From assembly GCA_020847635.1 (NCBI GenBank), contig JADLBQ010000072.1:1-64000 (forward strand): DNA of 64,000 bases, written 5' to 3'. Made by a program: the position numbers and the translations under genes. The notes below the pieces were generated by a model. It saw only the letters and a list, made by a program, of their open reading frames with translations. It was not told the origin of the DNA and did no database searches. Origin of the DNA: Bacteroidia bacterium. GTDB lineage: Bacteria > Bacteroidota > Bacteroidia > AKYH767-A > OLB10. How positions within the stretch are numbered: the stretch's first letter is position 1; each line of letters opens with the position of its first letter. Shown here piece after piece: positions 5,514 through 17,238 of this stretch.

Positions 5514-8500
5514 TCAGAAGGTGTCAAGGTCAATAGGTCTCATGATTCCAAACCATTTGAAAGTACGTTCGCCCAAGTCAGGTGAACTCACATGAATCAG
5601 ATAAATTCCACTTCCTATTGTAATACCTTTATGATTTTTAAGATCCCAGTCTATAAAGGTGGCTGTATTCGGATTTTTCAAATCTTCTGTTGTGCCGCCT
5701 GCTGAGTTATCACTTGCAACCGAACGGTTGAATTTACGAACCAGCGTTCCATTCAGGTTGAAAATTGTTACTGTACACTTGCTCGGAAGGTTAATAATTC
5801 TAACACGGTTATCTAACTGACCGGCTACACTGGAGGTTCCTTCATAAGCAGAATAGGCATAATAAGGATTGGGAACGATTCCAACCAGATCAAGAGCATT
5901 TTTAGCTGCTTCCAGGTTTCCCTTTGACGGAGCCAAATCACCGGTTGAGAATGTGTAATAAGGATTGAAGCCATTGGCAGGTGCTGTTGCTGTTACCAGT
6001 CCTGCTCCCGTAAATTTAGTTGCCGGGCCAGAAGCAACAAATGATGCTCCAATCTGGCTATATGTTGTTCCATTATAAGTAACTGGTGTGCTGCATACAT
6101 AATATGTACTTCCGATATTCAAGTCATTGTCATTATTTAAAGCAGGACTACCGGCTAAAGGACGATAAGATCGGGCAACGCGTAATCTGATAGTTGCATC
6201 ACTCGCTAATAATTTCTTACCTGCTGCAACTAACGGCAAACTTACCCACATGCAGTCTTTCCAAACATTTCTTCTTATTGTGTTATTATTAAGCGTTGCA
6301 GCCGAGTCAAGCATTTTTGCAATAAATGCACAGCCGTCATATGCTGGAACGTCAGTTTTTCCGGCCACATTATCACCGTTGTGACCAAACACATAGATAT
6401 AATGCATTCCACCGAAAAAGACCGAATCAAGGGAATTGTTATTCTTGAATTTCTGATCTGTTGGATTCCAAATCATATCACCTCCGTTCTGAGCGCCTAA
6501 CATCGAGTTCTCACCATAGGCAATATTCAATCTCTCACCTGTTTCCAGATTTATTGCATAACCCGGGAACCAACCCATTCCTGTTGCCATAACGGATAAA
6601 TCTCCTCCCATTACTCCATCTTTATCAATTGAGGGTGATTTCCTCAGATCAAACTTCTTAGCATTACCAAATGTCTCAGTCATGATATTTCCCATTTCAA
6701 TTACTGCTGCACGGCTCCACTTGCTGCGGTCATTGGTAATAACAAGATCAACACTTGCCAACCCGGTTTTAGCGGTTGCTGTTGGAGACAACTGAACCTG
6801 TGCTTCAGCTACTCCTGTATATTTCGGAGCATAGTACTTATCCTGGTCCTTAGCTGCAAGTTTAAAAGGTGCCCAGGTACCGTCAATAACTGTTTCATAA
6901 ACCTGATCATCATCTATTCCAACATAATCCAGGAAGTTTCCTGAATTTATAGTTCCGCTGCGGATCCAGTTTTCAGGTGTTTCTCCATCTGCATCCTTTA
7001 CTCCTGTCAGCCACCTTTGGGTATTATCTGAGAAAGAAATTGTTCCTTGCAAAAATCCATTATTGATGGCTCCGATTTTACCTGCTTCAACAACATTATT
7101 AATCATTGTTGAAAGGCCCCATGAATAATCTGTTCCATTAAAACGACCTTGCATAATTTCTTCATTCGAATAGCCAATGGCGAAATCTGACTTATCTGTA
7201 ATTCCACTACTCAATTCTTTCATATACCAATAATTGGTATCAGCAACTCCGTCAAATCGGACCTCAAAAGATCCACCCTTAACTAAGGTTGGGTCATATA
7301 CTTTTACTCCGATAGGAGCTGCCGAATTTTTATAAACCGGATTGAATGCTATGTTGTTCGCTAATATTTCATTCACGGTTTCTGTGGTTAAGTCAATAAC
7401 ATTCCCGCCATTTCCTTGTCCTTCAATCCGCTTCACTGATGGACTGCTCCCATAAAGAGCATTAAGCACCATTCCACCTGCTTCAACTTGCTGCGGATGT
7501 GGAATAGCTGAATATATTTTTACATTATTACGACCTGCCTTGTAAGGCTTTTGCTGACCTTCCAGCATAGTTGGATCAAAAGGATTAAACTCAGAATAAT
7601 TGTTGTAAGCATAAGCGATTGCCAAGTAGTAATAAGTCTTAAAATTAACTAAATCATTTGCTCCTTTTGCAAACAAATCTTTGCTCACCTTAATTGTATG
7701 GACGATTCCTTTATCAGCACCGTTTACTTCTTCAACAGGAAGTAAAGCATTCAATGAGGCATCATACGTGAAATTGATTAACCTGCTGACTCCGTCTCGT
7801 ATATCACACTGAAGTAACAATCTTGCTTTGTCTGGATGTTTTAAATCTGCTGTTACAACACTTGCATCCGCAACTTGATAAATCTGATAACCCTGAAATT
7901 TAAAATGTTTATCTTCTTCCGGAACCGGAACACCGTTAACAGTTGATATCGTTGGATCAATTTCATCATAGAGCTCAATCTTATCCGTATAGGTGTTCTC
8001 CAGCGAAATGATTATCTGGCGATCTAATTCACGAATTGCCAGATCCGGAGCATCGGGCCCGTCTAACAGTTTAAAACAATTGTCGAAGAGTGACTGGGCT
8101 TTGTCATCAGCAAGCTTGATTAATTCCACTGAAGCCTGCGGACCTCCCTGATTGGCTTTAGCCCAAACGACTCCGGTAGTAATATAGTTTACAGCTCCGG
8201 GTTGCAGTGTGAATGGTCCTGCTGATTGTAAAAACCTTCTGTCAGCAGGCGCATTGCCGGAGGATGCTTCAGTCCAGTTTGGACATGCCGGATCAGTATC
8301 TCCGCCAAACATATAATTAACAGGCACTGTACCACCATATCCGTTTCCTCCGCAAGTCATAGGTGTACCATCTGTCCAGATCCCTCTCAAATAATTATAA
8401 TAGTGCTCAAGCAGGGACGGGTTTCCGGTAACTGACCAGTCATTTGCATAATAAACAAATTTTGACATAATAATTAACTCCGGCATATCGGTATCCGGCA

Positions 8501-9656
8501 CAGTCGCAACAACTACTCCATTATCATAAATATATGTGCAATCCACGCATCCGTCCTTGTCATTATCAATCCCATCACCAATATCAGCTTTAGGTCCCTG
8601 GAAAAAATCAACTCCAACGGAAGGAGGGTTAATCCCATATCCGGTTGCTCCTTCATCATCTGCATCTCCGTTATAACAGTAGCCTAACCCACGGTTCACA
8701 TCACATCCAACGTAATCATCATTGTAATAACCAAGATCCGGGTCAACCCATTGTCCAAAATAAGTTTCATTCAATGTAGAAAATGACCGGTTAACAATCT
8801 GGTATTTATAGAAGGTCATGTTGTTAATTTCATCATTTGACCGGAAAGCAAATGCCTGTGCCCTGATTTCGAGCCCGATAGCTGGTGATTCTGTTTCAGT
8901 TTTTACTCCTCCAACATCATTAAATACCCACCACATAGTTTGGTCTCCGAATAAAAAATCATCACATGTTACTTTTGTGTGAGTGGTTCCCGGTATAGGT
9001 ACTTCCGGAAAATCACCATCTAGTTTATAGCCTGGATAATCTCCTGCAGTATAATCATACACACCGTCACCGTTCACGTCAATAAAAGGAGCAAGATAGC
9101 GACCTTCAGAGGGGCTGCTTACATTTCCGTTACCAGGCCATTCCTTTATGCCTTTTGTTGCATTAGCCGGAATCGGATCATTTGCAAACTGTTGTACTTC
9201 TTCTTTGGTAACCCGAAAGTGTTTGTCAAAATCAATACAACGCTGAAACGAGATTGACATATTTGTGGTGTCCACCGGGCCAGCCCAAAAGTCATTTCCT
9301 CCGGATTGACGATAAGTTTGTGCAGCTGAAAGTATCTGACCACCCTGGTCAATACCCCCAATCCAAAGAGCACCGGCAAAAATTGAAAATTTATTGCTGT
9401 TTTTGGGTACCTCATATTTTGCATCTGATAAATCCCACCACATGTCTCCACCCACCAAAATTGTCGCTCTGATGTTATTAATATCCAGATCATTTTGTGC
9501 AGTTGTTGGTGCACAATCGGCAGCAGCTGCCTTGGGATTGGGTTTACCTTTTTTATTCGGATTACCCGGAACATTTTCTTTACCAAAGACATTTGCACTA
9601 CCTAATACAGATATCAGTGATAAACAGGCAATAGTGACTCTCGTTACGTTTTTCAT
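5514..9656 (-). CDS. Very large secreted protein with C-terminal FlgD/Ig-like sorting-type domain
   Basis: 1380 aa, signal peptide, C-terminal VGIVPNPYYAYSAYE...VTIFNLNGTLVRKF...GSGIYLIHVSSPDLGERTFKWFGIMRP. Confidence 0.75.
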   Translation of the reverse strand: MKNVTRVTIACLSLISVLGSANVFGKENVPGNPNKKGKPNPKAAAADCAPTTAQNDLDINNIRATILVGGDMWWDLSDAKYEVPKNSNKFSIFAGALWIGGIDQGGQILSAAQTYRQSGGNDFWAGPVDTTNMSISFQRCIDFDKHFRVTKEEVQQFANDPIPANATKGIKEWPGNGNVSSPSEGRYLAPFIDVNGDGVYDYTAGDYPGYKLDGDFPEVPIPGTTHTKVTCDDFLFGDQTMWWVFNDVGGVKTETESPAIGLEIRAQAFAFRSNDEINNMTFYKYQIVNRSFSTLNETYFGQWVDPDLGYYNDDYVGCDVNRGLGYCYNGDADDEGATGYGINPPSVGVDFFQGPKADIGDGIDNDKDGCVDCTYIYDNGVVVATVPDTDMPELIIMSKFVYYANDWSVTGNPSLLEHYYNYLRGIWTDGTPMTCGGNGYGGTVPVNYMFGGDTDPACPNWTEASSGNAPADRRFLQSAGPFTLQPGAVNYITTGVVWAKANQGGPQASVELIKLADDKAQSLFDNCFKLLDGPDAPDLAIRELDRQIIISLENTYTDKIELYDEIDPTISTVNGVPVPEEDKHFKFQGYQIYQVADASVVTADLKHPDKARLLLQCDIRDGVSRLINFTYDASLNALLPVEEVNGADKGIVHTIKVSKDLFAKGANDLVNFKTYYYLAIAYAYNNYSEFNPFDPTMLEGQQKPYKAGRNNVKIYSAIPHPQQVEAGGMVLNALYGSSPSVKRIEGQGNGGNVIDLTTETVNEILANNIAFNPVYKNSAAPIGVKVYDPTLVKGGSFEVRFDGVADTNYWYMKELSSGITDKSDFAIGYSNEEIMQGRFNGTDYSWGLSTMINNVVEAGKIGAINNGFLQGTISFSDNTQRWLTGVKDADGETPENWIRSGTINSGNFLDYVGIDDDQVYETVIDGTWAPFKLAAKDQDKYYAPKYTGVAEAQVQLSPTATAKTGLASVDLVITNDRSKWSRAAVIEMGNIMTETFGNAKKFDLRKSPSIDKDGVMGGDLSVMATGMGWFPGYAINLETGERLNIAYGENSMLGAQNGGDMIWNPTDQKFKNNNSLDSVFFGGMHYIYVFGHNGDNVAGKTDVPAYDGCAFIAKMLDSAATLNNNTIRRNVWKDCMWVSLPLVAAGKKLLASDATIRLRVARSYRPLAGSPALNNDNDLNIGSTYYVCSTPVTYNGTTYSQIGASFVASGPATKFTGAGLVTATAPANGFNPYYTFSTGDLAPSKGNLEAAKNALDLVGIVPNPYYAYSAYEGTSSVAGQLDNRVRIINLPSKCTVTIFNLNGTLVRKFNRSVASDNSAGGTTEDLKNPNTATFIDWDLKNHKGITIGSGIYLIHVSSPDLGERTFKWFGIMRPIDLDTF

Positions 9657-9692: not shown

Positions 9693-12600
9693 TTAAAAAT
9701 TAATTTCAAGTCCAAGTCTCATTCTTCTTGGCAGACTATAGAAGTTCGGATTTGCTGCTTTCATCCAGTACTGATCAATGAATGCCTGTTGTTGTTCAAC
9801 TGGCAATTGATTAAGTGATTGCTGACCAAGTGCTGAAGCAAGATATCCATCATCATCCGGAACTCCTGTTGCGGCATAAACACCCAAAATATTCTTTGCA
9901 TTTAAGAGATTCTGTACTTGTAAATAGACGTTAATTCCAAGTTCTCTGCTTCCTTCACCCTTCAATTTAATTGCAAATTCCTTGTCCAGTCGCAAATCAA
10001 TCCGGGTTTGCCATGGTAATCTGGAACCGTTAATTGATCCCTTTACCGCTCCGACACCTTCCTGCTGGACTCCCAGATTTGCAATCTGATTTGAAATATC
10101 TGAGTTAGCAGTATAGGGAGTTCCTGAATTTAAACGGAATACCAGATTCGCACCGGCATTGGCAAAAATTTGCTTGCCAAACAGCATCGGGCCATTGTAG
10201 TCTTTCCCACTGGAATAACGATAATCAACAGATGCAACCAATACATGTCGTTGGTCAAAATCAAGCGGAGTCAGTGTCCTCAAATTTGGTAATCCATTAG
10301 CCAACAGCTTGGTAGAGACCTGGTCATTAGATCCGGTTCCTTCTGCAAACTGAAGGGTATAATTCAGGTTCAGCCTGATGTTGCCAACTCTGCGTAAATC
10401 ATACGAAAGGATGACTCCTTTAACCGTCCCAAAATCAAAATTTCCGTAAGTCTGATAGGTTTTGGGATATGCAAAAGGCAATTGAATTAACTGAATCATG
10501 TCTTTTAATTCGCGATAGAATGCGGAAATGCTAAGTGCCGAACTCTTGGTTAATGCTTGCTTAAAACCAAGCTCATAATCAACTGTTCTTTCCGGTTTTA
10601 ATGATGGATTTGAAAACAACGGACCCTGGTCAATTTCCCAATAAAGATAACTTAAAGGATCATTTCTCAGTCTTCCGGATGGACGCTGAGTCAACACATC
10701 ATAATGCGCAAAGAACTGGGCTTCATCAGAAATCGGGAACGAAAAAGCGACACGCGGCATCACTGTGATTTGTGGCTCATAATCTTTAAAGCTACGGTTT
10801 GCGTCAAAGAATTCACCTTCAATTGCCCGGGGCATTGCCAGCCGGGTGTCTTCAAGGTAGGGGTAAATAACAGTTGTAGAGTTAATCTGAGCAAGCAATG
10901 ATGGATCGGTTACAACTGCACCAGAAGCATCGTACCAGGTATTTCCATCGCGATAACCGATAATTTCATTAACTGATGGATTTGAAATATCAACAACATA
11001 AGGTACAAAATCATCACCAATGTTGTCTGGCCTGTTGGGAATATTCAACTGACCCACTGTTTTTGTCGGATAAAGAGTATAGGGGTCAGTTAACACTTTT
11101 TGATTCGCATCAAAGCGGTCAACACGAACTCCAATGATAAAAATTAAGTCATTGATATCAAATTTATCCTGAACATAAAATGCCATGTAATTCGGACGGA
11201 AAGCATCTACCGCCCTTTCTGCCGGTTTGCCGTTACTGCCCCGTTTAAAAAAGGATTCATAAGATGGCTTGCCGCTAAGTTTTTTTCCTGTATAATCAAA
11301 ACCATAATATGAGATCAATGTTGAACCGTTATTGAAAAGTTCATCAGGAGTAAAAAGGCTTAGCGAGAAATTATCACGGTCATAGGAATCAAGATCTACA
11401 TAATCCGTTATCCCCAACCCTAATTGCTTTCTTACATTTTCATAAAATCCGGGAATTCCACTGGTATTCAGATAAGATGGCTGCCAGTAGGCTGTATCGG
11501 GTCCGTAGGTGTAGGTACCGCTGTTTAAAAGCAGATTCGAATTAGCTAACTGCCTCATCTTACCCCATAAACTCCTCGGAGAAACAGCAAAGTATCTTTC
11601 AACCCGTTGCTCATACTCAAAGCCAAGCATGATGTTATGGTTTTTAATATCCGTTGAAAATGCAAACTTACCCGTGTATTGATTCTGCTCAAGGTTAGTA
11701 TATAAATTAAAGACATTTCCAAATGGAATCCAGAGACCGAAAATCAAACCCGGGGCTGAACCATTAATAAGAGCATTGTTATTAATCACATCACTACTGG
11801 TTTTGGGCAGAATTCCTATTGAATTTGCATAATCATAGTAGGCTTGTGTATATGCCTGTGATTCCGGGTTTACATTACCTGGAGTAAAGGTATAATTATA
11901 GTACGAAATACCAGCCTGAGTAACTGTGGTATAATTATTAGAATCCAACGGATCGTAATAGATTGTATCGCCCGTCAGATAAACAGGTCTTTGCTGCTGG
12001 GTGAATTTACCAATATACCCGTAATCAAAGTAGTTATCTTTGAAATCCTTATTCTGCCTGTTCTGGGTAAACTGAGACAGATCGAACTGCAGTGTATAAT
12101 AGGCGTTTTTCAGCAAGGATGATGATTTTTCATCTGAGTTGCTTAGTTTATGAGTAAAACGGATGAATGCATTCGTATTGGACTCAACCCTGTTTTCATT
12201 ATTAGAGGTATTGAATAACATATAATTTAAACTAAATAGATTCACATCCAGCTTATCATAACTTCCTCCAATAGTTACATTCATGTTTTTTGTTGGAGCA
12301 ATATCAATTTTCCCGTTAATCCGGAATGCCTTTGAGTTGTTATTATTCTTGTAATTGATTTTTTCAACATCATTTGCCGTAATACTGACAGCTCTTGGCT
12401 CAAGAGCTGAACCAATAGAATTCAATTTGAGCGGATCTTTCTTTAATTCATCAAGTACACCTTCTTTAAGCTGCCAGGTTCCTACAGCTGACGGATCCCT
12501 GTCTTTATCCTTTTGATATTCAGCTGACAGGAAGAAACCGGCAATTGGTCTTTTCCCGGATTCTGTCTTTTTGCTAAAAATAGGGCCTGAAACATTGGCT

Positions 12601-13358
12601 CCAATCAGATTATAGCCATAATCATCAAAGAGTTCAGAGGTTACTACTTCAATTCCTCCGCTGATTTCTTCAGCCGGTCCTCTTGTAGATACGACAATCA
12701 CACCACCGGTATTATCTCCATATTGAGCTTCAAGACCTCCGGTTTTTACTGTAATCTGTTCAACCGCTGATTGTGGCAGTCGTAAAGCACCCCGAACACG
12801 GATACCATCAACGATAAAATCAGTTGCGTCACTTCGTGAACCGCGAACATTAATCGCCTTATTTTCATCGGTCTGAACAATACCTGCACTGGTTGCAGCA
12901 ATTGCAGTTACACTCCGTGTTGGAGCTTGTTGAATTTGTTCAGTTGTAATGGTTTGCTGGGTTGAAGTCTGCCCTTTGTCAATAATTGGTTGTTTATAGG
13001 TTGATATTTCAACTGCCTGAATATCAACAGCACCTTTGCCTAGTTTGAGATCCTGATAAGTGATCTTATCAGCTGAAACCAGGATATCTTTAACTTCAAA
13101 AGCGGTATATCCAACAAATGAAGCTTTCACATTATAATTACCTGGCGATAACGGTTTAATGGTGTATTTCCCATCCATATCAGTTTGTGCACCTCCTGCC
13201 TGCCTTCCGTTTATTTCAGCTATCACATTAGCAAAAGGTAGTGGTTCGCCTGTTGATTTGTCAAGTACTCGTCCACTAATAGATCCTGTGTTCTGTGAAT
13301 ATGCGTTAATTCCTAAAACGCAAAACATGGCTACCGCCAAATAACATTTTCTTAGCAT
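9693..13358 (-). CDS. TonB-dependent receptor with N-terminal carboxypeptidase-like regulatory domain
   Basis: 1221 aa; GSISGRVLDKSTGEPLPFANV, plug domain (VRGSRSDATDFIVDGIRVRG), RLPQSAVEQITVKTGGLEAQYGDNTGGVI, terminal barrel strand LGLEINF. Confidence 0.9.
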   Translation of the reverse strand: MLRKCYLAVAMFCVLGINAYSQNTGSISGRVLDKSTGEPLPFANVIAEINGRQAGGAQTDMDGKYTIKPLSPGNYNVKASFVGYTAFEVKDILVSADKITYQDLKLGKGAVDIQAVEISTYKQPIIDKGQTSTQQTITTEQIQQAPTRSVTAIAATSAGIVQTDENKAINVRGSRSDATDFIVDGIRVRGALRLPQSAVEQITVKTGGLEAQYGDNTGGVIVVSTRGPAEEISGGIEVVTSELFDDYGYNLIGANVSGPIFSKKTESGKRPIAGFFLSAEYQKDKDRDPSAVGTWQLKEGVLDELKKDPLKLNSIGSALEPRAVSITANDVEKINYKNNNNSKAFRINGKIDIAPTKNMNVTIGGSYDKLDVNLFSLNYMLFNTSNNENRVESNTNAFIRFTHKLSNSDEKSSSLLKNAYYTLQFDLSQFTQNRQNKDFKDNYFDYGYIGKFTQQQRPVYLTGDTIYYDPLDSNNYTTVTQAGISYYNYTFTPGNVNPESQAYTQAYYDYANSIGILPKTSSDVINNNALINGSAPGLIFGLWIPFGNVFNLYTNLEQNQYTGKFAFSTDIKNHNIMLGFEYEQRVERYFAVSPRSLWGKMRQLANSNLLLNSGTYTYGPDTAYWQPSYLNTSGIPGFYENVRKQLGLGITDYVDLDSYDRDNFSLSLFTPDELFNNGSTLISYYGFDYTGKKLSGKPSYESFFKRGSNGKPAERAVDAFRPNYMAFYVQDKFDINDLIFIIGVRVDRFDANQKVLTDPYTLYPTKTVGQLNIPNRPDNIGDDFVPYVVDISNPSVNEIIGYRDGNTWYDASGAVVTDPSLLAQINSTTVIYPYLEDTRLAMPRAIEGEFFDANRSFKDYEPQITVMPRVAFSFPISDEAQFFAHYDVLTQRPSGRLRNDPLSYLYWEIDQGPLFSNPSLKPERTVDYELGFKQALTKSSALSISAFYRELKDMIQLIQLPFAYPKTYQTYGNFDFGTVKGVILSYDLRRVGNIRLNLNYTLQFAEGTGSNDQVSTKLLANGLPNLRTLTPLDFDQRHVLVASVDYRYSSGKDYNGPMLFGKQIFANAGANLVFRLNSGTPYTANSDISNQIANLGVQQEGVGAVKGSINGSRLPWQTRIDLRLDKEFAIKLKGEGSRELGINVYLQVQNLLNAKNILGVYAATGVPDDDGYLASALGQQSLNQLPVEQQQAFIDQYWMKAANPNFYSLPRRMRLGLEINF

Positions 13359-13490: not shown

Positions 13491-13919
13491 TCAGTGATAA
13501 GGTCTGTTTATAATTTCTGCATAAATTACTGCTTGCCGAAGATCAAATGAGTCAAGATCAAAATGACTGATCAACTCCTTGCCACTGCTTATTTCATATT
13601 CAGAAGGTACTTCCTCATGGTATAAACCAGCCCGATAATTAAATGAAGATTCTTCTGATGCGGGTGCTGGTTGCCGCACTTCCTTCTGAGTTTTTGATTT
13701 AACGGAAATTGGTTGTTCAGGTAATCCCGGACTTCTCCTTTCAAGCTGAGCAACCGGCTTCTTTACTGGCTTAGGCGGTAATTCAGATTCGATAAATTCC
13801 TGCGAAACAGGTACCTGCTTTTTCTGACCGGGTCTGTTTTGCTGAACTTTTCTGAAATTCTTTGAGACCAACCAGATGATCGCAGCAACAACATAAATGA
13901 TTACCTCAAAATCTTTCAT
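13491..13919 (-). CDS. Small single-TM protein of unknown function
   Basis: 142 aa; N-terminal TM, Pro/Lys-rich linker, C-terminal DLRQAVIYAEIINRPYH block. Confidence 0.65.
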   Translation of the reverse strand: MKDFEVIIYVVAAIIWLVSKNFRKVQQNRPGQKKQVPVSQEFIESELPPKPVKKPVAQLERRSPGLPEQPISVKSKTQKEVRQPAPASEESSFNYRAGLYHEEVPSEYEISSGKELISHFDLDSFDLRQAVIYAEIINRPYH

Positions 13920-14040
13920 GCCTCAAAAGTAGATTTTGATTTTAAATTTCCAACCTCGCCTGATTAGTTAAAGCAATATAATGCAGGAAAATAAACCTGA
14001 AAACAGGTTAGCTTATTAAGTTCTTAGAATAAATGGTTAT

Positions 14041-15006
14041 TTAAAAAATATATTCTGAAGAATCATCCTCCCGGGAAACCGGCAGCTTGTTTTTCTCAAC
14101 TTCATTTACCAAAAATATTGACGCACGATTCTCAAAAATCTCAGAATCTGTTGGTACTACCGGCCTCGTTATGAAGTCAAATGGATTCAATGCATGATAA
14201 TATTTCTCATATCCAAACTCTGTCAGTAGTTCGTCTGCAGTATTTTCGACAAATTGATTTATCAGATTCTGATTCAAACCGGTCAAGGTAACCGGAAGCG
14301 ACTCAGCAATAAAATGCTTTTCATAATCAACTGCTTCTTTAAGGATGTGTAAAACATCATTCCATGCAAGCTTCTCACCAATCATCAGATAAATCTGACA
14401 GATAAAATTACTGTTCAACTGCTTAAAAGTAGAAATCCTTTGATATAGCCCGGTAAGACCCGGCATAAATCCACGTCTTTGCAGCCATGATAAAGCACAA
14501 TGGCTGCCGCTGAAAAAAATTCGATGAGTGACTGCAACTGGTATAAGCCAATTAACTGGTTGCTTACTCCCGGTTTTTCTTTTGACCCAATCTTCCTTAT
14601 TACGAATGCTTTTAATACAGGCCATTGTATCAGCCAGGCTCCTACCTTTCCGGGAATTGCTAACACATAAGGTTAACAATTCAAAAAGCATATCCGACTG
14701 GGCTACACCCATTCTGGATGCGAATTCATTAAAACTTTGAAGCTCATTATTGCCGGCTTCATTCATTAATCTTAATCTGAGTTTCTCATTCAGATGATTA
14801 CTACCGGCAAGACAAGCGATACTGTAGCCGATATAATGTTGTTCATTTTCATTTAATAATTCCCAGTCTTTAACATCAGCACTCCAGTTTATGGCTTCAT
14901 ACGTGCCAAAATCCCGGATAAAGTTTTTATATAAATTCTGAATTTCCAGATTTTGAAAAGAGAGCAGGTTAAGCCATTCTTTGTTTCTGTTAAATAGTAT
15001 TTCCAT
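14041..15006 (-). CDS. Ribonucleotide reductase small-subunit (R2/NrdB)-like protein lacking the metal ligands and radical Tyr (predicted pseudo-enzyme)
   Basis: 321 aa; R2 landmarks HRIFFSGSHCALSWLQRRGFMPGLT, HFIAESLPVTLTGLN, QFVENTADELLTEFGYEKYYHALNPFDF, but canonical VEGIFF is THRIFF and DEGLH is FKQLN. Confidence 0.85.
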   Translation of the reverse strand: MEILFNRNKEWLNLLSFQNLEIQNLYKNFIRDFGTYEAINWSADVKDWELLNENEQHYIGYSIACLAGSNHLNEKLRLRLMNEAGNNELQSFNEFASRMGVAQSDMLFELLTLCVSNSRKGRSLADTMACIKSIRNKEDWVKRKTGSKQPVNWLIPVAVTHRIFFSGSHCALSWLQRRGFMPGLTGLYQRISTFKQLNSNFICQIYLMIGEKLAWNDVLHILKEAVDYEKHFIAESLPVTLTGLNQNLINQFVENTADELLTEFGYEKYYHALNPFDFITRPVVPTDSEIFENRASIFLVNEVEKNKLPVSREDDSSEYIF

Positions 15007-15258: not shown

Positions 15259-17238
15259 TCATTCAATTCCATTGAGTTTCAAAAAGGCATCAAGCTTTGG
15301 TTCGCGTCCGAGAAAATTCTTAACCAGTTGAGATTCTTCTTCGGTCGCCCCTTTTTCAAGAACCTCACCTAGGTATTTCAAGCCCATCTCCGGATTCAGC
15401 ATTCCTGCCTTTCTAATTTCAAGATACATATCATCGGCATAAACCCGCGCCCACATGTAACTGTAATAGCCAGCGGCATAATCTTTCAGATGACCAAATG
15501 AGGTTTCAAAATGTGTTCCTTCAACAAACGGGAATAAGGTGATAGAATTCTGGAGTTCACGAACCACTTCGGTGGTTGATTGGCTTTTTATATCAAATTG
15601 ATCATGATAAGTCATGTCCAGCGAAGCATAGAAAATCTGTTGAAGCAGAAATATTCCACTGTTGACATTACGGGCATCAATCATTTTTTTGAAAGTCACC
15701 TCCGGCAAGACCTCACCTGTTTTATAATGATGGGCGAATAGTTTAAGTGACTCATAATCCCATGCCCAATTTTCAAATAACTGTGAAGGGACTTCCACAA
15801 AATCAATGGCTGTATTTGTACCTGCAAAATAGTAAACCGGTGACCGGGTAAGCAGGTGATGAGTTAAATGTCCGAACTCATGAAAAAGAGTAACTACCTC
15901 GTTATGCGTGAGCAGAGAAGGTAACTCAGCAGTCGGTTTTGGAAAGTTACAAACTAATGCTGCCGAAGGTGTCTGATAAGTGCCGTCTGCCAGTTGCTTG
16001 CCCCCAGTAATACCAAAACAGGCAGCATGACTGAATTTATTTTTTCTTGGAAACAGGTCAAGATAAAAATGAGCAATTTTGTTCTCTTCCCGGATTACTT
16101 CAAAATAACGTGTATCCTTATGCCAGACAGGTTGGTTTTCTTTTTCGGTTATTTTGACTCCAAAAAGCTTTTCACATATCGCAAAAATCCCTTTCAGTAC
16201 AGAATCAATTGGAAAATATTCTTTCAGTTTTTGCGAATCGAGGTGATAACGGTCCAACAAGAGCTTTTCAGTAAAATAACCACTTTGCCAAGAAAGGATT
16301 GGATCTTCACTCCCGGTTTCTTCTTTTTTAATTTGTATCAGTAAAGCATAATCCTTTCTTGCTTTTGGGGTAATCTTTTGCTGCAATGATTTTTCAAAAT
16401 TCCAAACTGCTTGAGGTGTTTTGGCAACATTATCCGTCAGATTATAATCGGCATAGCTCCGATATCCCAACAATGCAGCCATACGGTTTCTGGCACTAAT
16501 TAGTTTATTAAGTACTTCTTGATTAGCCTTTGCCCGTGTTACGAAAGCGGTATAAAGTTTTTTTCTCGCATCATCACTCTTGCAAAACTTCATGAATGGA
16601 TGGTAATCAGGATAATCAAGGGTTACCAGAATAGAGCCATCTGGTTGTTTTCGTTGTCTGATATAGGATTCGGGTAATCCATCTGCTTCTTCAGCTGTAA
16701 AGCGGAATTCATGGTGGTCTGAATCAATATTATTGCTGAATTCAATACCAAGATCAGAAATTGTATCCTTAATTTTTTTAAGCTCAGTGCGGCTATTTTC
16801 ATCCAGATTACAACCGTTTCGCTCAAAACTGCTAATTATCTTATCCATCAGCCTGGCCTGCCATCCGCCAAGGTGATTCTTTTTATAAACTGGTTTAACT
16901 GCCTCATACAGTTCCGAATCTAACGATATACTGTTAAACATTTTCCCGGTTTCAGCCAATGAGATCATGGCTTGTTTGCGTATTTCTTCAGTAGGGTGGG
17001 TATTACTGATTAAGTCTAACAGATTATGCATCCTCCCCAGCTGGTTATACAAATCATCGATTCTAAGAAACGTATTCTCAAAAGTCTTTTTCGATTTGAG
17101 AGATTTAATTTCGGTTAGGATATCTTCTGAAGAAGAAATCACTGTCTTTGCAGCCTGATCAATTAAACCGGCTTTCAGATCTGTAAAATTAACCGGCAAA
17201 CTGTAATCACCGGTTAGAGCCAACACACTTTGTTTCAT
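15259..17238 (-). CDS. M3 family oligopeptidase (thimet/Dcp/OpdA-like)
   Basis: 659 aa; LFHEFGHLTHHLL zinc motif, YAAGYYSYMWARVYADDMY. Confidence 0.95.
   Translation of the reverse strand: MKQSVLALTGDYSLPVNFTDLKAGLIDQAAKTVISSSEDILTEIKSLKSKKTFENTFLRIDDLYNQLGRMHNLLDLISNTHPTEEIRKQAMISLAETGKMFNSISLDSELYEAVKPVYKKNHLGGWQARLMDKIISSFERNGCNLDENSRTELKKIKDTISDLGIEFSNNIDSDHHEFRFTAEEADGLPESYIRQRKQPDGSILVTLDYPDYHPFMKFCKSDDARKKLYTAFVTRAKANQEVLNKLISARNRMAALLGYRSYADYNLTDNVAKTPQAVWNFEKSLQQKITPKARKDYALLIQIKKEETGSEDPILSWQSGYFTEKLLLDRYHLDSQKLKEYFPIDSVLKGIFAICEKLFGVKITEKENQPVWHKDTRYFEVIREENKIAHFYLDLFPRKNKFSHAACFGITGGKQLADGTYQTPSAALVCNFPKPTAELPSLLTHNEVVTLFHEFGHLTHHLLTRSPVYYFAGTNTAIDFVEVPSQLFENWAWDYESLKLFAHHYKTGEVLPEVTFKKMIDARNVNSGIFLLQQIFYASLDMTYHDQFDIKSQSTTEVVRELQNSITLFPFVEGTHFETSFGHLKDYAAGYYSYMWARVYADDMYLEIRKAGMLNPEMGLKYLGEVLEKGATEEESQLVKNFLGREPKLDAFLKLNGIE

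Follow-up and report, generated by a model that had tools for sequence, protein, structure and literature searches.

The window, by which we mean the whole 64,000-nucleotide stretch of DNA analyzed (contig JADLBQ010000072.1 of a Bacteroidia bacterium), harbors on its minus strand an R2-like gene (PF00268) at positions 14041 to 15006. The ORF is read from 15006 to 14041, a minus-strand location that the sequence-only reading of this DNA had not stated, and its 321 codons run uninterrupted from an ATG to a stop, encoding a protein of 321 aa. The GC3 of the gene is 0.355, compared to 0.359 ± 0.021 across 27 genes of the window.

Synteny with the nrdBA locus

We compared the locus with that of G001, the sole other genome of the genus compared, which carries a canonical class Ia-type Bacteroidota nrdB (C9:15301-16200) in the order phoH, nrdB, nrdA, a 162-aa gene, a TonB receptor gene, and a 1374-aa gene. 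In the window, the R2-like gene is followed, with no nrdA, by genes for a 142-aa protein (13491 to 13919), a TonB-dependent receptor (9693 to 13358), and a 1380-aa protein (5514 to 9656), all on the minus strand and with the same orientation and relative order as in G001. The last two genes provide synteny anchors, the receptor sharing 77% identity with its counterpart in the G001 nrdBA locus and the 1380-aa protein 77-78% with the 1374-aa one. The 142-aa protein has no significant family match but is the ortholog of the G001 162-aa gene, which lies directly downstream of nrdA, and thus delimits the former nrdBA locus on the right. The place of nrdA, which encodes 788 aa in G001, is taken by a 121-bp gap with no strand assignment (13920 to 14040), and a tblastn search of the window with the G001 NrdA returned only chance matches (best E = 2.0) and no nrdA remnant. 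The synteny with G001 therefore identifies the R2-like gene as the positional ortholog of nrdB, still at its original site, from which the neighboring nrdA is cleanly absent. Neighboring genes other than the 142-aa gene are 70-86% identical between the window and G001, while the R2 proteins are only 34-35% identical. We also observed that the 142-aa protein beside the lost nrdA is unusually diverged for this neighborhood, with 37% identity to its G001 ortholog over 162 columns.

The other flank differs between the two genomes. G001 has phoH at this position, whereas the window has an M3-family peptidase gene (15259 to 17238, minus strand), rnc, fabF, and acpP. The G001 ortholog of the peptidase (70%) is located on another contig together with rnc, fabF, and acpP, which places a rearrangement breakpoint between the peptidase gene and the R2-like gene. 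An assembly chimera at the R2-like gene was not supported, as the gene is inside a 76-kb contig and has syntenic neighbors on one side, and a phage or horizontal origin was ruled out by the nrdBA synteny with G001 and by the lack of a viral match. In the R2 tree, the branch of the R2-like protein reached the length limit (10) and its placement is not interpretable; the sisterhood of the gene to the G001 nrdB rests on synteny and taxonomy.

Fold and active site of the R2-like protein

The R2-like protein matched PF00268 over residues 13 to 275, corresponding to profile positions 3 to 281 of 281 (E = 1.2e-42), with a score of 146.7 bits against a cut-off of 33.6. It therefore belongs to the family over the whole domain, and the claim of the sequence-only reading that the R2 scaffold is kept from end to end was borne out. 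Among proteins of solved structure, phmmer ranked mouse R2 (1h0n, E = 2.4e-42) and further eukaryotic R2s highest, yeast Rnr4 (1jk0_B, E = 1.4e-28) appearing lower among the matches. The R2-like protein went unrecognized by NCBI's curated models of functional beta subunits (best score 35 bits, cut-offs 237-355). An AF2 model was obtained with moderate confidence (pLDDT 71.6, pTM 0.72), and a control prediction for the same-genus canonical R2, made with the same sequences, gave a pLDDT of 78.6 and a pTM of 0.77. A Foldseek search with the model of the R2-like protein matched p53R2, RRM2, and mouse R2 with TM values of 0.75-0.77 (prob 1.00), and Rnr4 (1sms) was also among the matches. The R2-like protein is thus predicted to have the R2 helical fold, in a test that is not fully independent of sequence because the AF2 input alignment contained canonical R2s.

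Mouse R2 residues D139, E170, H173, Y177, E233, E267, and H270 correspond to N70, G100, Q103, L107, H161, K195, and N198 of the R2-like protein, respectively. These equivalences agree in two alignments, one made with phmmer against mouse R2 and one made with MAFFT that includes 29 R2s from related genomes, all 29 of which have D/E/H/Y/E/E/H at the seven positions. None of the six metal ligands is present in the R2-like protein, and L107 occupies the position of the radical tyrosine. The sequence-only reading, which had aligned the protein by eye, had placed these replacements at the same residues, and an alignment with Glu, Asp, and His at the six ligand positions was not obtained. Class Ic R2s have a phenylalanine instead of the radical tyrosine. 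The radical-transfer residues, which the sequence-only reading did not mention, are also replaced in the R2-like protein, G34 corresponding to mouse W103 and F194 to D266. Compared to the same-genus R2, the only internal length change is the deletion of one residue beside N70; all remaining length changes are in the C-terminal tail, which reads REDDSSEYIF, whereas canonical relatives retain a DEDF end that is missing here. Thus, the R2-like protein has in common with the canonical NrdB its locus, length, and predicted fold, and both keep FFSGS, W174-L175, RG, MPGL, NPFDF, and many invariant structural residues, but unlike the canonical protein it is without the ligands, the radical tyrosine, the W103 and D266 equivalents, the DEDF tail, and an adjoining nrdA.

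Overall, 41% of 190 otherwise near-invariant R2 positions are retained in the R2-like protein. Retention is 0 of 9 for the catalytic and radical-transfer positions as opposed to 78 of 181 for the other invariants (p = 0.011). Erosion of invariants within 4 residues of the ligands in sequence does not clearly exceed that of the others (13/43 versus 65/147 kept, p = 0.11), and the excess of erosion is confined to the nine functional residues themselves.

Reductases of the genome and orphan R2s of the class

The assembly (2.58 Mb, 94 contigs, 99.8% complete) contains one PF00268 gene, which is the R2-like gene, and one large-subunit homolog, an adenosylcobalamin-dependent class II NrdJ (TIGR02504, 484 bits). 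NrdJ generates its own radical from B12 and does not require an R2. Neither a class I NrdA nor a second R2 was found in this 99.8% complete genome, and a search for the separate canonical nrdA and nrdB that the sequence-only reading had envisaged found neither. In its ligands, its radical residues, and its lack of an NrdA partner, the R2-like protein differs from a functional class I NrdB. Elsewhere in the order (44 genomes), R2 accompanies NrdA, except in fragmented or less complete genomes. Three genomes from another genus of the same family (G006, G013, and G017) have neither R2 nor NrdA and only NrdJ-level matches, which is a complete loss of the class I reductase in a sister genus.

We next surveyed 395 genomes of the class by crossing an R2 search with an NrdA search and then checking the candidates. 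R2 was present in 283 of the 395 genomes. The genome G086, from another family (f48; 99% complete, 30 contigs), harbors a single R2 (C15:122335-123351) with an intact ORF that has lost five of the seven residues (E170M, Y177W, E233Q, E267T, and H270F). NrdA was not found in the G086 genome, which gave an NrdJ-level match only; G125, a relative from the same family, contains both NrdA and a canonical R2. Hence, G086 resembles the window genome in having NrdJ without NrdA and a single, intact R2 from which most active-site residues are lost. Unlike the R2-like protein, to which it is 27% identical, the G086 R2 still has a DEDFNP end and the residues equivalent to D139, H173, W103, and D266. The sets of invariants retained in the two proteins overlap with an OR of 3.37, compared to a neutral value of 1.09 (95% 0.60-1.91), and the observed OR was reached in none of 400 simulated pairs of neutral decays. 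At sites lost in both proteins, the replacement is shared at 6 of 62 (shuffled mean 3.5). So few shared replacements and an identity of 27% are as expected for separate events, and from the sequences G086 is apparently a second, independent case. The overlap of kept invariants therefore indicates that on two occasions the chemistry was lost but the same framework survived.

Milder orphans were also evident. The R2 of G050 (C29, L180:7923-8891) carries E233D, E267K, and H270Q and has lost the R1-binding tail, and no NrdA was found above the cut-off in this genome, which is 91% complete. In G170 (96% complete), likewise with no NrdA above the cut-off, the R2 (C115, L181:7282-8220) has intact ligands and a lost R1-binding tail. 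The R2 of the single-contig genome G329 (C1, L182:7881-8768) also has intact ligands, a lost tail, and no nrdA alongside; this genome carries, in addition, a second R2 and partial NrdA matches. It is possible, judging from these sequences, that the tail-less R2s of G170 and G329 represent a first stage of orphaning. The total of five orphan R2s is a rough count, as R2 and NrdA scores guided the choice of orphans and assembly gaps could partly explain the milder ones. Other low-scoring R2s (G117, G203, G238, G272, G364, G383, and others) proved to be other R2 subtypes with their ligands in place, and G144 (masked residues), G223 (poor alignment), and G270 and G022 (contig-end fragments) were set aside as candidates. 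The survey also revealed an otherwise canonical nrdB with one in-frame TAG in a single-contig genome (G099, C1:3299734-3300645).

Selection, decay, and the role of an orphan R2

No ortholog of the R2-like protein was found in the 44 genomes of the order, in genome_contigs, or in viral_contigs. In the 44 genomes its matches were at only 30-35% identity, and the 29 that were aligned are all canonical. An ortholog of the degenerate G086 protein was likewise not found. Of the conserved, noncatalytic role proposed by the sequence-only reading, the intact noncatalytic R2 scaffold is supported; in the genomes compared, the degenerate form is restricted to this one.

Simulated neutral decay of a canonical nrdB to 38% identity produced a mean of 11.3 stops and a minimum of 4 (300 runs). 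In simulations of decay to 45% identity, in which GC, kappa, and the starting gene were varied, about 9-13 stops accumulated, and none of 1200 runs was free of stops. The R2-like gene has no stops, its length changes are all in frame, and it shows none of the stops, frameshifts, or truncation of a pseudogene; its open frame is incompatible with neutral decay. In 300 neutral runs constrained to keep an open frame, retention of invariants averaged 35%, and the observed 41% lies at their maximum. Even against the congener G001, synonymous sites have reached saturation, with 4-fold identity of 0.29-0.36 in well-sampled neighboring genes. By codon ML, the branch omega of the R2-like gene was not stable, being 0.50 when 4 neutral substitutions per codon were assumed and 1.0 when 2 were assumed, and fixing omega at 1 on this branch, with the branch length free, was about 16 lnL units worse. 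Given this saturation, and with no ortholog found, selection on the gene was inferred indirectly. These data show that selection acted on the frame during much of its divergence, a conclusion that does not extend to selection today.

The main rival to a retained scaffold is that the gene keeps some residual role and is slowly being lost. The gene would then be a decaying relic, an nrdB left jobless by the loss of nrdA, on its way out and maybe dead now, and we regard this as possible but doubtful. That nrdA is gone beside the R2-like gene and that no ortholog was found are consistent with a relic, as is the modest cost of omega = 1 (only about 16 lnL units). The NrdA-less genomes, moreover, span stages of loss, from the tail only (G170 and G329) through three ligands (G050) to five of the seven residues (G086). 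Under neutral decay, however, some 10 stops or more and numerous indels would be expected, of which none were seen, the retained sites coincide with those of the G086 R2 beyond neutral expectation, and the retention of invariants tops the open-frame neutral runs. A variant in which a residual role, or selection against a misfolded product, gave temporary protection is perhaps conceivable. The decaying duplicate that the sequence-only reading had set against its own proposal thus agrees with the restriction of the gene to one genome, but in the form of simple neutral decay it conflicts with the open frame and with the parallel case in G086.

The sequence-only reading had proposed a partner of a true NrdB, or an NrdA-binding decoy or regulator, with REDDSSEYIF as a mimic of the R1-binding peptide. 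Yeast Rnr4 (beta-prime), an R2 paralog without the residues needed for the diiron center (PMC3824934), offers a precedent, being likewise ligand-deficient and matching the R2-like protein both by sequence (1jk0_B) and by fold (1sms). Rnr4 operates beside Rnr2 and R1, though, and neither is present here: the only PF00268 protein is the R2-like one, the only large-subunit homolog is the class II NrdJ, and the tail is without the DEDF end of canonical relatives. With no NrdA and no second R2, an NrdA/NrdB partner or an NrdA decoy is therefore very unlikely, and a mimic of the R1-binding peptide would have no R1 to bind. The ligand-poor apicomplexan R2_e2 (PfR4), in which the five iron ligands tested across clades are conserved with few exceptions (PMC3824934), also differs in its setting, as Apicomplexa have an orthodox R2 and R1 and the window genome has neither. 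It is scarcely credible that the protein is a metal-free radical R2 of the class Ie kind or that its former cavity now houses a new cofactor site. Both the R2-like protein and the G050 R2 have a lysine at the E267 position, which we take to be the position of the class Ie lysine. Class Ie R2s (VPK and QSK variants) have three glutamates substituted, with a lysine among the replacements, retain the tyrosine, and contain no metal (PMC11846895). Substituted ligands are therefore common to both, but the class Ie tyrosine becomes DOPA and carries the radical, and the class Ie protein works with NrdI and R1, whereas the R2-like protein has lost all six ligands, including both histidines, has a leucine for the tyrosine, has lost the radical-transfer Trp and Asp, and has no R1 in its genome to receive a radical. 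With neither the tyrosine nor an R1, it is not a class Ie R2.

That the protein is an accessory or regulatory subunit of the class II NrdJ is improbable. NrdJ is the sole reductase large subunit found in both the window genome (G000) and G086, which favors such a role, but its radical is derived from B12 without the help of an R2, and the NrdJ-only relatives G006, G013, and G017 manage without any R2. R2lox proteins are characterized by the ligands of a Mn/Fe site and a Tyr-Val cross-link. The Sulfolobus NrdB-like protein SSO2498, an R2lox and an R2 homolog in a setting where the only large subunit is class II, is thought not to be an RNR subunit, and a physical interaction with NrdJ was not detected (PMC5134839). 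SSO2498 keeps its Mn/Fe site and belongs to another clade; the R2-like protein lacks the Mn/Fe ligands of an R2lox, its metal site is gone, and it descends in place from nrdB.

We therefore consider it probable, though by no means certain, that the R2-like protein is a pseudoenzyme, a descendant of nrdB kept for its R2 scaffold after loss of the class I reductase and serving as a noncatalytic scaffold or adaptor. The lineage would have lost nrdA and come to rely on the B12-dependent class II NrdJ, leaving the original nrdB behind. Freed from catalysis, nrdB would have lost the six ligands, the radical tyrosine, the radical-transfer Trp and Asp, and the R1-binding tail, while selection would have maintained its open frame and a large part of the helical framework. 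The product is most likely a noncatalytic helical, probably dimeric, scaffold or adaptor that binds another protein or a small molecule; its expression, dimerization, and binding role are what we infer from this history. The parallel loss in the distant relative G086 suggests that the protein shell is kept for something other than its original chemistry. A broader reading, which we put forward tentatively, is that R2 has an R1-independent function that outlasts nrdA and that, in bacteria turning to class II reductase, nrdB has repeatedly been retained and remodeled as a metal-free scaffold, which would make it a recurring new type of R2 pseudoenzyme in bacteria. Against a retained scaffold, the milder orphans G050, G170, and G329 could alternatively represent decay still in progress.

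Ligand-deficient R2s are already known (Rnr4, R2_e2, and class Ie), all with an R1 present in the literature found. A bacterial R2 lacking both an R1 and the ligands was not described in that literature, in a search that reached few subscription papers. An R2 shell without R1 at the old nrdB locus, apparently arisen more than once, would, if true, mean that the R2 fold has a role beyond ribonucleotide reduction. Alternatively, G170 and G329, G050, G086, and the window may form a natural series that records the order in which a metalloenzyme loses its partner tail, its metal site, and its radical path.
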